A DNA stretch of 21,241 nucleotides from a virus: positions 1 through 21,241 of the IMG/VR virus record IMGVR_UViG_3300020463_002171. The stretch is one strand, 5' to 3'. The translations under genes were made by a program, and so were the position numbers. Below the pieces are notes generated by a model, which made no database searches, was not told where the DNA came from, and was given only the letters and a program-made list of their open reading frames with translations. This document shows positions 8,527-21,129 of the stretch, piece by piece. The first letter of the stretch is position 1; each line of letters begins with the position of its first letter.

Positions 8527-8895
8527 ATGGCGGAAGCCATGTTGTTATTCATGCTAGTAGTAAAACACGCACTAGCAGACCTAGTTCTACAAAGTCGGCT
8601 TACATCTGGAGATAAAAGTAATTTAAAAAGTTTGAAAGGTTATATACACGCCGGAGATCACGCGGTTTGTACCTTTATAGTCTTGCTGTTTTTTACATCC
8701 TTTCAAAATTCTGTTCTGATAGCAATGCTAGACTATGTTCTACATTTCATCATTGATTTTACAAAAACAAAACTTATGCGATATTATGATATCGAAACAA
8801 ACTCCAAAAAGTTTTGGATATTCCAAGGCGTTGATCAAATCGCCCATTATACTTGTTACTTTATTTACGTTCTTCTCTTGACAAACCTATTATAG
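8527..8895 (+). CDS. DUF3307 integral membrane protein
   Basis: A 122-residue membrane protein of the DUF3307 family. The conserved polar residues fall inside hydrophobic helices: KHALADLVLQ near the start, GYIHAGDHAVCTFIVLLFF, LDYVLHFIIDFTKTK, and FWIFQGVDQIAHYTCYFIYVLLL. Three to four transmembrane helices with buried His and Asp are expected. The biochemical role of the family is unknown. The ATG at 8527 follows GGAGAAGTAA. The coding end overlaps the -35 of the tmRNA promoter (8878). Confidence 0.8.
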   Translation: MAEAMLLFMLVVKHALADLVLQSRLTSGDKSNLKSLKGYIHAGDHAVCTFIVLLFFTSFQNSVLIAMLDYVLHFIIDFTKTKLMRYYDIETNSKKFWIFQGVDQIAHYTCYFIYVLLLTNLL

Positions 8896-8908
8896 TATGT
8901 TATAAATA
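8878..8908 (+). promoter_or_regulatory. Composite promoter for tmRNA-hemC-hemE
   Basis: TTGACA at 8878-8883, 17 bp, then TATAAA at 8901-8906 make a near-consensus sigma70 promoter. The same -10 is the start of TATAAATA (8901-8908), the exact T4 late-promoter consensus. Transcription would begin near 8913, at the expected 5' edge of the tmRNA acceptor piece. The site could therefore be used by host polymerase early and by the phage-modified polymerase late. Confidence 0.75.
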
Positions 8909-8972
8909 CACTACAATGTTGAAGCAATTCAAACACTGGACAGGACCTGGGGGCAGTACCCAGCAGGTCCAC

Positions 8973-9040
8973 CATAAACACTTTGTAGTTACCAGAACCT
9001 GATGGTACCCACAAGTAAGGACAGACGCAAAGTGTTTATG
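8973..9040 (+). other. Spacer hairpin between the two tmRNA pieces
   Basis: CATAAACACTTTG (8973-8985) and CAAAGTGTTTATG (9028-9040) are a perfect 13-bp inverted repeat. They stack on the acceptor stem and close the intervening sequence that must be cut out to give two mature pieces. The repeat begins in the CCA end itself. A smaller hairpin (TACCA/TGGTA) lies within the loop. In host tmRNAs this segment is removed by nucleases that mature tRNA ends. Confidence 0.85.
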
Positions 9041-9130
9041 ATGGGCCTGAACTAGGATCGACTGACAGAATAGTAGAAGCGTGGAGTTGTCCGGATGTAA
9101 GCTCGGTTAACGCGAACAAACGTTATAAAT

Positions 9131-9220
9131 GCAAACGATAATGCATCTAACGTATTTTCTTTCGTGGATTTTTCCAATGCGAGAAAGTACGTGAATGAGG
9201 ATTTCGCCTTAGCGGCGTAA
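9131..9220 (+). other. tmRNA proteolysis-tag reading frame, 29 codons
   Basis: The resume codon is GCA at 9131. The frame begins ANDNASNVFSFVDFSNARKY and ends VNEDFALAA before TAA at 9218-9220. The start (ANDN) is typical of alphaproteobacterial tags, and the hydrophobic ALAA end is the ClpXP/ClpAP degradation signal. Most bacterial tags have about 8-15 residues, so this one is about twice as long, with a central FSFVDFSNARKY segment not seen in standard tags. The reading frame is inferred from the end motif and the resume context. Confidence 0.85.
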
Positions 9221-9277
9221 TCGCTCGGGGTTGGCGGCTTACCTAGCAACAGAAAAGTCGCACTACATGGAGGCTGT

Positions 9278-10105
9278 ATGAAGTTAGGTGTTAGAAGTAG
9301 TAAATTGGCAATAGCCTATGCTAACAAAGTAATAGATGCTCTCCTCTTTCCCGATATAGAAATTGCTCCTATTGTAACTGAAGGTGATGTCAAAAGTAAT
9401 ACATCCATACAGGAGATAGGTGGCAAAGGTGTATTTGTTTCTGAAATAGAAAAACATTTATTAGAAGGCACAATCGATATTGCTGTTCATAGTTTTAAAG
9501 ATTTGCCAGCACAAATGGATGATAAACTTACCATTAGTGCCGTTCTAGAAAGAAATGATCCAAGAGATTGCTACATTGGTAGGCTTTTTCCTAAAGCCAG
9601 AGTAGGCACAGGATCTCCTAGGCGAATAGCACAACTAAAAAATAATTTTACTGTGGACTTTGATATCTTGCCTATTAGAGGAAATATAGATACAAGATTA
9701 CAAAAACTGGATAATGATCAATATGATGCTATAATTTTAGCAGTGGCTGGTTTAGAAGCCTTAGGCTTGGAAAATAAAATTACAAAAATTTTGCCGTTTG
9801 ATAAAATGCTTCCTTGCGTAGGACAAGGTACAATCGCTATCCAAACAAGGAAAGATTATGAATGGCATGATAAGATACAGTCTATATGCCATATGCCCAC
9901 TTACTACTCCGTTATGGCTGAACGAGAAGTACTAAAAGTAGTAGACGGAGATTGTCACACTGCCATAGGTGTGATATCAACATTGGTGGGTGATTGTATT
10001 ATGATCCGAGCATATAATTATGAAAATGATAAGGAATATGCTAACATGTCCAAAAGAACAGATTACATAGAACTTGGTAGGGAAGTGGGTAACAAAATTA
10101 AGTGA
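9278..10105 (+). CDS. hemC: Porphobilinogen deaminase (hydroxymethylbilane synthase)
   Basis: A 275-residue enzyme that joins four porphobilinogens into hydroxymethylbilane in tetrapyrrole synthesis. Catalytic Asp75 is in HSFKDLP (E. coli D84). Substrate arginines are in VGTGSPRR and IRGNIDTRLQKLDN. YDAIILAVAGLEALGL follows, and Cys226 in VDGDCHTAIGV is the thioether anchor for the dipyrromethane cofactor (E. coli C242). All key residues are kept, so it is probably active. The protein is about 35 residues shorter than the usual 310, mostly by trimming in domain 3. The ATG at 9278 has GGAGG 4 nt upstream. Only about 15 nt separate it from the tmRNA 3' end, so the two are probably cotranscribed. 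Its GTGA stop/start overlap couples it to hemE. A tetrapyrrole enzyme of this kind is rare in phages. Confidence 0.95.
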   Translation: MKLGVRSSKLAIAYANKVIDALLFPDIEIAPIVTEGDVKSNTSIQEIGGKGVFVSEIEKHLLEGTIDIAVHSFKDLPAQMDDKLTISAVLERNDPRDCYIGRLFPKARVGTGSPRRIAQLKNNFTVDFDILPIRGNIDTRLQKLDNDQYDAIILAVAGLEALGLENKITKILPFDKMLPCVGQGTIAIQTRKDYEWHDKIQSICHMPTYYSVMAEREVLKVVDGDCHTAIGVISTLVGDCIMIRAYNYENDKEYANMSKRTDYIELGREVGNKIK

Positions 10106-11076
10106 ACAAAAAATTTACTAATGCCTGTGATAGAATACAACAAAAAACTCCTCCTATTTGGTTCATGCGTCAAGCAGGCAGATATCATTCCCATTATAGA
10201 GATTTAAAACAAAAATACACATTTGAATATCTTTGTAAAACTCCTGAACTAGCTGGAGAAGTTGCGTTAGGTCCAATAGTAGAATTTGATTATGATGTGG
10301 CCATCTTGTTTTCTGATATTCTTTTTCCATTAGAAGGCTTAGGTATGAATCTTAGATTTGATCCTGGTCCTAAGTTTCAATTTCATCTAAACGAAAGCAA
10401 TGCTAATCAATTAGATGACATCAGTAAAGCAATTAATTTTATGTCTTTCCAACGAGATGCTTTACTGACAACTAGGACTATGCTGTCCAAAGACAAAAGC
10501 CTAATAGGATTTATAGGAGGACCTTGGACACTTATGAATTATGCCTGTGGTGATAGCAAAGTTTCAGATGAGTTTAAATTAAAATATATGGAAACAGTAT
10601 TAATCCCTTTGCTACAAAAAAATATTGAACTACAAATCAAGGCTGGTGCTGAAAAAGTTATGATCTTTGATAGTGGTTTACAAAACATGTCTACAAGATT
10701 TTTTGATGCTAAGTATTTTCCGTTGCTTAAAAAACTATCTTCAAAAGATACAGCTTACTATAGTAGGAACCTACCACGAAAATGTATAGGCACAATTCTT
10801 CAAACTGAATGGGGTGGTATAGGAGTAGACAGTAAGTTAGACATTGCTGATTGCTTAGAAACAGTTGACACCGGATTTGTACAAGGAAATTTTGACGAAA
10901 AAAAGATGTTATTACCTAAACACAAATTCATGTATGCCATAGAAAAATATTGTGATGATATTTTAAAAACTGATAGGACTGGCTGGGTATGTGGATTGGG
11001 ACACGGAATAGATAAGACAACTCCTGAAGAACATGTTCATTTGTTTATAGAAACAGTTCGTAACAGATTATCTTGA
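10102..11076 (+). CDS. hemE: Uroporphyrinogen decarboxylase
   Basis: A 324-residue enzyme that removes four carboxyl groups from uroporphyrinogen to give coproporphyrinogen. The family signature PPIWFMRQAGRYHSHYR carries R23 and R27. D72 in LFSDILFPLEGLG is the key acid that holds the pyrroles. GFIGGPWTLMNYACG carries Y147, F189-D-S191 fits the F-x-S loop, and GLGHGIDKTTPEEHV carries H301. All match the R37/R41/D86/Y164/S219/H339 set of the human enzyme. It is about 30 residues shorter than usual, with a compact region near 212-235. The start is GTG 10102, overlapping the hemC stop (GTGA). Its last 9 nt overlap the convergent minus-strand gene. HemD, which acts between HemC and HemE, is not in the window. 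Confidence 0.95.
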   Translation: MNKKFTNACDRIQQKTPPIWFMRQAGRYHSHYRDLKQKYTFEYLCKTPELAGEVALGPIVEFDYDVAILFSDILFPLEGLGMNLRFDPGPKFQFHLNESNANQLDDISKAINFMSFQRDALLTTRTMLSKDKSLIGFIGGPWTLMNYACGDSKVSDEFKLKYMETVLIPLLQKNIELQIKAGAEKVMIFDSGLQNMSTRFFDAKYFPLLKKLSSKDTAYYSRNLPRKCIGTILQTEWGGIGVDSKLDIADCLETVDTGFVQGNFDEKKMLLPKHKFMYAIEKYCDDILKTDRTGWVCGLGHGIDKTTPEEHVHLFIETVRNRLS

Positions 11077-19507: not shown

Positions 19508-20083
19508 ATGTCGCTTACGGTTGAAGCGTGGTTCCCCCAACTTATTTGGTCTGGCCTGTTAGAAAATATAGATAATGAGAAACTTACGGAATTTGCTTAC
19601 GAAAGAAAGAAGCAAACAGAAGGCGTAAAAGCATCTAATTATATAGGTTGGCAAAGTAGTAATATCCATTACAAAGACAACGATACATTTGATAAGTTAG
19701 TAGAAACTATTACAGGTCATATAGAAGATTGTAGAGATCTAGTAAAACTGCCTCCATTACAACTGTATAATATTTGGATCAACGTAAATGGTCCAGGAGC
19801 ATATAATCATTTACATAATCACCCAATGGCTTTACTAAGTGGTGTGTATTATGTAAAAAGCACACAAGAACAGGGCAACATATTTTTTGAAAGAAGTGAT
19901 GGTGCTGAATATTTTTTACCTCCGGTACAAGAAGGCAATCACTTTAATGGTTCGGCAACATCTTATAAATCAGTAACTGGTGCTTTATACATTTTTCCTG
20001 GTTGGCTTAAACATAGTGTGGAACCAAACACAACAGAAGAAAATAGAATATCAATATCATTTAACTACGGAGTGACCAAATGA
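19508..20083 (+). CDS. 2-oxoglutarate/Fe(II)-dependent oxygenase
   Basis: A 191-residue protein of the 2OG-FeII_Oxy_5/TIGR02466 type. It has NVNGPGAYNHLHNHPMALLS with GVYYVKS (iron His in the H101-H105 cluster), then IFPGWLKHSVEP with the distal His169 and ENRISISFNYG with R180 for binding 2-oxoglutarate. The H-x-H...H...R-x-S-x-S-x-N order is typical. It would hydroxylate or otherwise oxidise a substrate using O2 and 2-oxoglutarate; the substrate is unknown. Such genes are common in marine T4-like phages. The stop overlaps the guaC start (ATGA). Confidence 0.9.
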   Translation: MSLTVEAWFPQLIWSGLLENIDNEKLTEFAYERKKQTEGVKASNYIGWQSSNIHYKDNDTFDKLVETITGHIEDCRDLVKLPPLQLYNIWINVNGPGAYNHLHNHPMALLSGVYYVKSTQEQGNIFFERSDGAEYFLPPVQEGNHFNGSATSYKSVTGALYIFPGWLKHSVEPNTTEENRISISFNYGVTK

Positions 20084-21129
20084 GAATAGAACACGATATC
20101 AAATTGGATTATCAGGACGTTCTTTTTAAACCAAAACGTTCTACACTGACATCTAGAAAAGATGTTGATCTAAAACGTACATTCAAATTTTATAATAGTA
20201 AAAAAGAATGGACTGGTATTCCTATAATGGCATCTAATATGGATGGCGTAGGTACTTTTGCCATGGCAAAAGTATTACAAGAAAGAAAGATGATTACTGT
20301 TTTAAGGAAACATTATACACTAGAAGATTGGAAAAATGCTATCGGTAATGGTGTAAAAATGAAATATCTAGCAGTTTGTACAGGAACTGGCGTCATATGG
20401 GATCCTGACGCTAAAGACTATGCTACAATGAAAGCAGTTCTTGAAATGTATCCTGATATACCTTTTATCTGTGTAGATGTAGCAAATGGCTATTTTGAAA
20501 ACTACGGAGAATTTATAGAACGCCTTAGAGAAACTTACCCAGAGAAAATTATTATTGCTGGAAATGTGATCACAGGTGAAATGACTGAAGAACTTATTTT
20601 ACGTGGAGCGGATATTGTTAAATGCGGAATAGGTCCAGGGTCAGTCTGTACAACACGACTAATGACAGGAGTAGGTGTACCACAACTTTCCGGGATCATT
20701 GAATGTACAGATGCCGCGAACGGTGTTGGTGGACATGTGATTGCTGATGGTGGTTGTATACATCCAGGAGATGTGGCCAAAGCATTTGGAGCAGGAGCTC
20801 ACTTTGTAATGTTAGGCGGTATGTTAGCAGGTCATGATGAATCAGAAGGTGAAATAGTAGACGGCAAAGTTCAGTTCTATGGAATGAGTTCAAATGCGGC
20901 TATGTCAAAGCACGGAAGCAGAAAAGATGGTTATAGAGGTGCTGAAGGTAAAGTGGTACAAATACCGCATAGAGGTCCTGTTGAAGGCACACTTACAGAA
21001 ATACTTGGAGGTGTAAGAAGTGCGGCTACGTATATTGGTGCGAAACGTATTAAGGACATGCCAAAATGTACAACATTTGTCCGTGTCAATAATGTAGTAA
21101 ATCAGGTGTTTAAACCGTTTGAAGCATAA
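20080..21129 (+). CDS. guaC: GMP reductase
   Basis: A 349-residue enzyme that converts GMP and NADPH to IMP, ammonia and NADP+. It begins MRIEHDIKLDYQDVLFKPKR, as in E. coli GuaC (347 residues). The catalytic Cys190 is in GIGPGSVCTTRLMTGVGVPQ, followed by the phosphate-binding HVIADGGCIHPGDVAKAFGA and FVMLGGMLAGHDES. There are no CBS domains and no IMP-dehydrogenase flap, so it is GuaC rather than GuaB. The start overlaps the oxygenase stop (ATGA). It would shift host guanine nucleotides towards IMP and AMP, sensible for an AT-rich phage that needs more A than G. A promoter follows its end. Confidence 0.95.
   Translation: MRIEHDIKLDYQDVLFKPKRSTLTSRKDVDLKRTFKFYNSKKEWTGIPIMASNMDGVGTFAMAKVLQERKMITVLRKHYTLEDWKNAIGNGVKMKYLAVCTGTGVIWDPDAKDYATMKAVLEMYPDIPFICVDVANGYFENYGEFIERLRETYPEKIIIAGNVITGEMTEELILRGADIVKCGIGPGSVCTTRLMTGVGVPQLSGIIECTDAANGVGGHVIADGGCIHPGDVAKAFGAGAHFVMLGGMLAGHDESEGEIVDGKVQFYGMSSNAAMSKHGSRKDGYRGAEGKVVQIPHRGPVEGTLTEILGGVRSAATYIGAKRIKDMPKCTTFVRVNNVVNQVFKPFEA

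Follow-up and report, generated by a model that had tools for sequence, protein, structure and literature searches.

Tags encoded by tmRNA are usually regarded as short degrons, and 10 residues are given as their most frequent length in PMC11915505. The viral locus described here and its relatives depart from this picture, which raises the question of why a phage tmRNA gene should encode a tag of 29 residues and whether the extra part acts as RNA, as peptide or as both. The window, by which we mean the whole stretch of 21,241 bases analysed, is an IMG/VR virus record in which ARAGORN called one tmRNA, of the permuted type, at 8882-9311. The reading that we favour, with some reserve, is that the phage encodes a two-piece tmRNA, probably a functional one, in which a single in-frame stem-loop module lengthens the degradation tag.

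The tmRNA gene and its tag

Two Rfam covariance models recognised the gene with scores far above their gathering scores. RF01849 (alpha_tmRNA, gathering score 50) matched positions 8869-9264 over the full model (1-355) with 105.2 bits and an E value of 3.7e-28, which makes the gene a member of this family, and RF04321 (tmRNA_permuted, gathering score 47) matched 8913-9220 with 93.7 bits. The gene spans approximately 8.87-9.26 kb and is of the permuted, two-piece alphaproteobacterial type, with the elements listed in Table 1. Its acceptor stem is formed by GGGCCTG (9043-9049) and CAGGTCC (8964-8970) and has a G-U wobble as its third pair (9045/8968); together with the encoded CCA, this constitutes an alanine-type acceptor stem as read from the sequence. 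Such a wobble at the third pair is a marker for alanine.

Table 1. Features of the tmRNA locus and its neighbourhood, with positions in the window.
Feature	Position	Strand	Basis
DUF3307 membrane protein, upstream gene	8527..8895	+	PF11750, E 5e-10
Probable sigma-70 promoter of the tmRNA: TTGACA (8878-8883), 17 nt, TATAAA (8901-8906)	8878..8906	+	read from sequence
Acceptor piece: T arm, 3' half of the acceptor stem, encoded CCA (8972-8974)	8942..8974	+	Rfam alignments
Intervening segment, lost on maturation, 68 nt; paired ends TAAACACTTTG (8975-8985) and CAAAGTGTTTA (9028-9038)	8975..9042	+	
Coding piece of the tmRNA, 3' end approximate	9043..9261	+	ARAGORN, Rfam; 3' segment ACCTAGCAACAGAA conserved in relatives
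Tag reading frame, 29 sense codons and TAA (9218-9220)	9131..9220	+	ARAGORN
ANDN, N-terminal part of the tag, putative SspB dock	9131..9142	+	pN/pS 0.10
In-frame 48-nt module, 16 codons, NVFSFVDFSNARKYVN, with internal hairpin; stem ACGTATTTTCT (9150-9160) and AGAAAGTACGT (9182-9192)	9149..9196	+	folding, recoding, covariation, absence in L114
P5-type hairpin covering EDFALAA and the stop codon, separate element	9197..9226	+	consensus fold
Porphobilinogen deaminase (HemC), downstream gene	9278..10105	+	PF01379, E 4e-65

The probable promoter sits within the 3' end of the DUF3307 gene, and similar hexamers occur in L140-L142, L146, L149 and L150; it was not caught by a consensus promoter scan, the rule of which demands a T as the sixth base of the second hexamer. 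Concerning the genomic surroundings, hemC and hemE adjoin each other 3' of the tmRNA (9278-11076), and a gene for IMP dehydrogenase/GMP reductase is located at 20080-21129. The ribonucleotide reductase large subunit has its nearest relatives in marine T4-like cyanophages (68-69% identity). A close isolate of the phage was not found by a DNA search of INPHARED and further searches, and HemC used as bait recovered no relatives.

According to ARAGORN and Rfam, a resume codon, a tag frame and a hydrophobic AA end are all present in the tmRNA. The tag reads ANDNASNVFSFVDFSNARKYVNEDFALAA and comprises 29 residues, and the original prediction of an unusually long tag of 29 codons at 9131-9220 was confirmed by the agreement of both programs and by its family-wide occurrence. 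A resume codon located elsewhere, which had been considered as an objection, does not apply: the resume region, AUAAAU followed by GCAAACGAUAA, aligns with the conserved resume region of both Rfam models and has GCA (9131-9133) as the resume codon. Since the Rfam alignment assigns 51 nt of the tag region to an insert state, the extra length is real, and the estimate of roughly twice the usual length holds when compared with the 13-15 residues that are usual in related marine phage tmRNAs.

Distribution of the long tags

The long tag of the window is not a chance product, because the family tag was found in 60 places (the window, 55 other viral contigs and four contigs met twice) with 25 distinct DNA sequences that encode 17 peptides of 29-30 residues. 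Their consensus is ANDNA[LS]xNVxFV[DN]F[SG]xxxxx[VL]NEDFALAA; all 17 peptides end in A[LI]AA, and ANDN is kept except for ANDK in one peptide (five contigs). A broad scan for tags of this length, taken together with the earlier loci, yielded 71 long-tag places in 84 loci, composed of the 60 members of the window family, 10 places in three further families and the doubtful L320, while the 12 other matches stand outside this count and represent two 14-residue tags (L280, L316) and otherwise unrelated frames. The three further viral families (ANDNAFDFTAMSFTGNTVANDSKFALAA, ANDNFVRNEQIAQSIVVRDRDLVAA and ANDNFAPEAFTSLDLSMDRELIAA; located in L124, L133, L138 and L139, in L130, L134, L136 and L137, and in L292 and L325) exhibit no hairpin signal. 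Among the matches listed for a short-tag pattern, which come from at least 120 viral contigs, the tags called by ARAGORN have 13-17 residues. A call of seven residues in L015 proved to be an error, as this locus reads ANDNFAPSGFALAA, and a candidate for a still longer tag from one contig of the scan reads as a 13-residue tag.

The additional segment as RNA

A relative that lacks the additional segment delimits it. L114 encodes the tag ANDNFASEDYALAA, i.e. the window tag minus its extra part, in a similar tmRNA, and is syntenic with the long-tag contigs L306, L293 and L318 (aligned stretches of 1.1-3.4 kb are 73-76% identical at the DNA level). The flanks are the same, with GCATCT followed by GAGGATTACGCC in L114 and GCATCT followed by 48 nt and GAGGATTTCGCC in the window, and one Phe codon differs; the 48 nt missing from L114 correspond almost exactly to the hairpin (9149-9196). 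L146 has the 14-residue tag ANDNFAIEDYRVAA next to an upstream DUF3307 gene that is 75% identical to that of the window, and L143 and L144 carry the DUF3307 gene with no recognisable tmRNA after it. Judged by their sequences, comparison of these phages shows a module that is situated between the tag start (ANDN) and the P5 hairpin (EDFALAA and stop codon) and is present in some relatives and absent from others. Two aspects had been overlooked in the original prediction, namely that related phages occur both with and without the extra segment and that this segment, besides encoding peptide, forms a conserved RNA hairpin.

The tag region had a folding z of -3.99 against dinucleotide shuffles. 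When the peptide was kept fixed and codons were drawn from the usage of the window itself (500 synonymous recodings per variant), the insert exceeded the recoding mean in stability for every one of the 17 peptide variants (mean z -3.14); these variants are related sequences and do not provide 17 independent tests. Recodings of equal stability amounted to no more than 3.8% in 16 of the variants and to 6.4% in L267, and 66 control windows from the ORFs of the window gave a mean z of -0.10 (sd 1.12, lowest value -2.69). In the SAPVTA subgroup (six sequences), the hairpin varies in only four columns, which make up two compensatory pairs (U-A/A-U and U-A/C-G) with exclusively synonymous changes; the chance of obtaining two pairs from four random third-position columns is approximately 0.03, even before matching bases are required. 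RNAalifold did not recover the central hairpin from the mixed alignment of 17 sequences, and the hairpin is visible within subgroups; the consensus hairpin of the window-type subgroup is weak (-4.1 kcal/mol), with one pair broken in some members. In the separate P5 hairpin, a U-A/C-G exchange was observed at columns 78/90 (eight and six of 17 sequences, with the pair broken in three). These data indicate that the module is constrained as RNA, as far as this can be read from folding and covariation.

A hairpin as a general need of long tags was ruled out, given that four of five other viral long tags (z -0.44 to -0.93; L320, -2.85) and 27 of 29 cellular ones (mean z -0.42; L263 and L265 below p 0.05) were without a clear signal in the recoding test. 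Likewise, a repeated or mobile hairpin was rejected, as a search that allowed up to three mismatches located the 20-nt arm at a single place in the window. Full-text literature searches, considered at the level of titles and abstract openings, retrieved no published description of a hairpin inside a tmRNA tag.

The additional segment as peptide

Over the 25 sequences, pN/pS was 0.10 for ANDN, 0.27 for the core (residues 10-15), 0.74 for residues 16-21 and 0.15 for the C-terminal nine residues, in line with the earlier view that both tag ends look functional. Residues 5-9 showed an overall value of 1.13, with 0.23 and 0.38 within two subgroups, and the whole insert reached 0.62. For residues 5-15, pN/pS was 0.57 in frame and rose to 1.05 and 1.50 when the two other frames were read. 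The core FV[DN]F[SG] is kept across subgroups and its third positions vary: variable columns within residues 10-15 numbered three, one and six (of six each) at the first, second and third codon position. Because RNA and codon constraints overlap, pN/pS is not clean evidence for a peptide, and we take these values as support for peptide constraint, not as proof. With this qualification, peptide constraint acts on the module core NVxFV[D/N]F and on both tag ends. Residues 16-21 are free to vary and the insert as a whole has a value of 0.62, and therefore a large part of the additional residues could be neutral filler. The C-terminal VNEDF was considered as a repeat of the ANDN dock, after the manner of the cellular tags with a doubled ANDN; this idea is weak, as LSEDF and VTEEL stand at this place in two family peptides.

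It could be argued that the module matters as RNA only, with the hairpin serving the geometry or stability of the tmRNA or causing the ribosome to pause, and with the additional residues being tolerated as a by-product. The strong recoding signal in 17 of 17 variants, the compensatory synonymous changes and the free variation of residues 16-21 would all fit this explanation, but the conservation of the FV[DN]F[SG] core across subgroups despite third-position variation and the dependence of pN/pS on the reading frame argue against it, and we regard it as rather doubtful.

Tags of possible hosts

The original prediction had also suggested that the phage could copy a long host tag and that the ssrA genes of SAR11 and other alphaproteobacteria should be compared. 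Cellular tags were read at 90 loci (the best 30 by score among 385 members of the class, and 60 small genomes selected by size), and 76 of these loci yielded an ARAGORN tag, most commonly of 12 residues (36 of 76) and of at least 20 residues in 14. AT-rich genomes of 1.2-1.5 Mb, for which the label SAR11-like refers to size and base composition only, have tags of 9-12 residues such as ANESYALAA, ANDNEMALAA and ANDNYFEARLAA, none of which is like that of the window. A pattern fitting the tag of the window matched 20 long tags in genome_contigs (84,980 species genomes), none of them similar and none with an FVDF-type core. In one order, 14 of 105 genomes matched a similar pattern, and 13 of these 14 loci encode a tag of 21-29 residues in which ANDN is doubled, again none of them similar.

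That the phage simply mimics a long tag of its host is consequently disfavoured on the present data and appears improbable. Tags of 20-32 residues do exist in some alphaproteobacteria, but neither the identical tag nor a similar one was present among the cellular tags examined in this non-exhaustive search, all the cellular long tags read being different.

Among the cellular long tags, those of Micavibrio-like alphaproteobacteria (L153-L172, L331-L344) have 21-25 residues with a doubled ANDN, e.g. ANDNFAVAANDNFAVEYAAAA. Some alphaproteobacteria with reduced genomes (L215, L223, L233, L248, L249, L255, L263-L265) have Arg/Lys-rich tags of 23-31 residues, several of them with repeated AN.N-like motifs.

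SspB was present in 37 of 50 cellular genomes searched (8 plus 42) and not detected in 13, and tags starting with ANDN were found in 19 of the 37 SspB-bearing genomes versus two of the 13 without SspB. The genomes without a detectable SspB (L207-L266, genomes G008-G378) have tags lacking ANDN in 11 of 13 cases, e.g. ANESYALAA and AKSDYAEYALAA. This co-occurrence agrees with ANDN acting as an SspB dock, and suggests an SspB-bearing host. Searches for SmpB and SspB in 18 related viral records, all of which are possibly fragments, recovered neither, and the host must therefore supply both proteins.

Protein genes in the tmRNA spacer

The intervening segment of the window contains no long ORF. Spacers of its relatives, the delimitation of which is approximate, reach 518 nt (97 distinct segments); 40 of the 97 are at least 110 nt long, and an ORF of at least 25 codons is present in 38 of these 40. 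In frame, pN/pS of such ORFs was 0.02-0.37 in eight of nine pairs, which belong to about three ORF families with shared members and are not independent, and the ninth pair (L149/L127, 0.67) was uninformative. The spacer of L096 contains an ORF of 151 residues that matches the homing endonuclease family PHROG 655 (E 1.7e-11) and Pfam HNH at a sub-threshold level. Many of the spacer ORFs have a Shine-Dalgarno-like sequence, and those other than L096 encode small membrane-like proteins (L110, L090, L112, L045/L089, L149/L127/L123/L292/L325, L270/L283/L290, L131/L146, L018/L025 and L051/L068/L084/L106/L108). The permuted tmRNA gene thus seems to be a cargo site, where related phages keep protein genes in the excised precursor segment. 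One tRNA gene in such a segment is reported as unique in PMC11915505, and full-text literature searches (titles and abstract openings) yielded no published description of protein genes in a tmRNA spacer.

Proposed role of the module

According to the reading favoured here, host SmpB would load the phage tmRNA, the ribosome would translate through the hairpin, and the ALAA end would deliver the tagged unfinished proteins to host ClpXP, assisted by an SspB-type adaptor docked on ANDN. The hairpin may compact the enlarged mRNA-like loop, so that the remaining tmRNA would keep its shape. The added peptide could provide a longer tail for ClpXP to grip or a second contact, and the second signal is the less certain step of the two; the aromatic core of the peptide may resemble in kind the internal signals of tags recognised by Lon.

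A tentative extension, to which we give limited credence, is that the insert represents a second address made by the phage. The stem-loop, also translated into a conserved aromatic peptide, would equip tagged proteins with a contact that host-tagged proteins lack, for instance to a Lon-type protease or to a host or phage adaptor, and the phage would re-route the products of ribosome rescue during infection. One phage group possesses a removable tag module that is read both as RNA structure and as peptide, and the natural module-free version in L114 allows a direct test of whether the phage alters the fate of rescued proteins.

A role in protease avoidance, in which the added segment shields the proteins or slows their degradation so that ribosomes are released without losing the proteins, is very unlikely: the tag of the window is unlike all cellular tags read and a long segment parts ANDN from ALAA, as would be expected in this case, but the ALAA end, i.e. 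the contact to ClpX, is kept throughout the family. T4 gene 60 is a precedent for ribosome bypass, and a hop over the hairpin from the Asn codon AAC (9149) to the Asn codon AAT (9194), which bound it, would leave ANDNASNEDFALAA with the usual length of 14 residues; such a programmed bypass is the least credible explanation, as the skipped part would need neither the peptide core nor the reading frame, yet both are conserved, and the flanking Asn codons are missing in some members (ANDKALDNVSFVNFGEQKDVRLSEDFALAA, ANDNALNNVTFVNFGKQKSVVTEELALAA).

Comparison with known systems

An extended tag of Mollicutes that is read by Lon is reportedly the subject on which Ge and Karzai 2009, by its title, bears. 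The tag of Mesoplasma florum (mf-ssrA) is a precedent for unusual protease signals; its C-terminus is NYAFA and its host has no active ClpXP, and the excerpted text of PMC9382460 makes no mention of an internal hairpin. The window shares with mf-ssrA a tag longer than usual, but its tag ends in ALAA, and all 17 family peptides have A[LI]AA in place of a C-terminal NYAFA. The long tags of Micavibrio-like and reduced-genome alphaproteobacteria resemble that of the window in their length of 20-32 residues and, in many cases, in an ANDN-type start. In contrast to the window, many of them repeat ANDN or AN.N, and they have no FVDF-type core and no general folding excess.

A closer relative is the OM43 phage Melnitz, described in PMC9004378 as a marine T4-like phage carrying a two-piece tmRNA of the alphaproteobacterial type. 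It was the only meaningful match in the DNA search of INPHARED, the others being short chance matches, and the sole isolate recovered through tmRNA similarity. Its ssrA (MZ577097) is 77.9% identical over 28% of the query, whereas its tag ANDNYVPVDYALAA has 14 residues and the module is absent. With the alphaproteobacterial permuted tmRNAs of RF01849 and RF04321, the tmRNA of the window has in common the order of the pieces, the third-pair G-U, the CCA, the resume region and a P5 hairpin over the stop codon; it differs from them by approximately 15 extra codons, which form an additional conserved hairpin upstream of P5.
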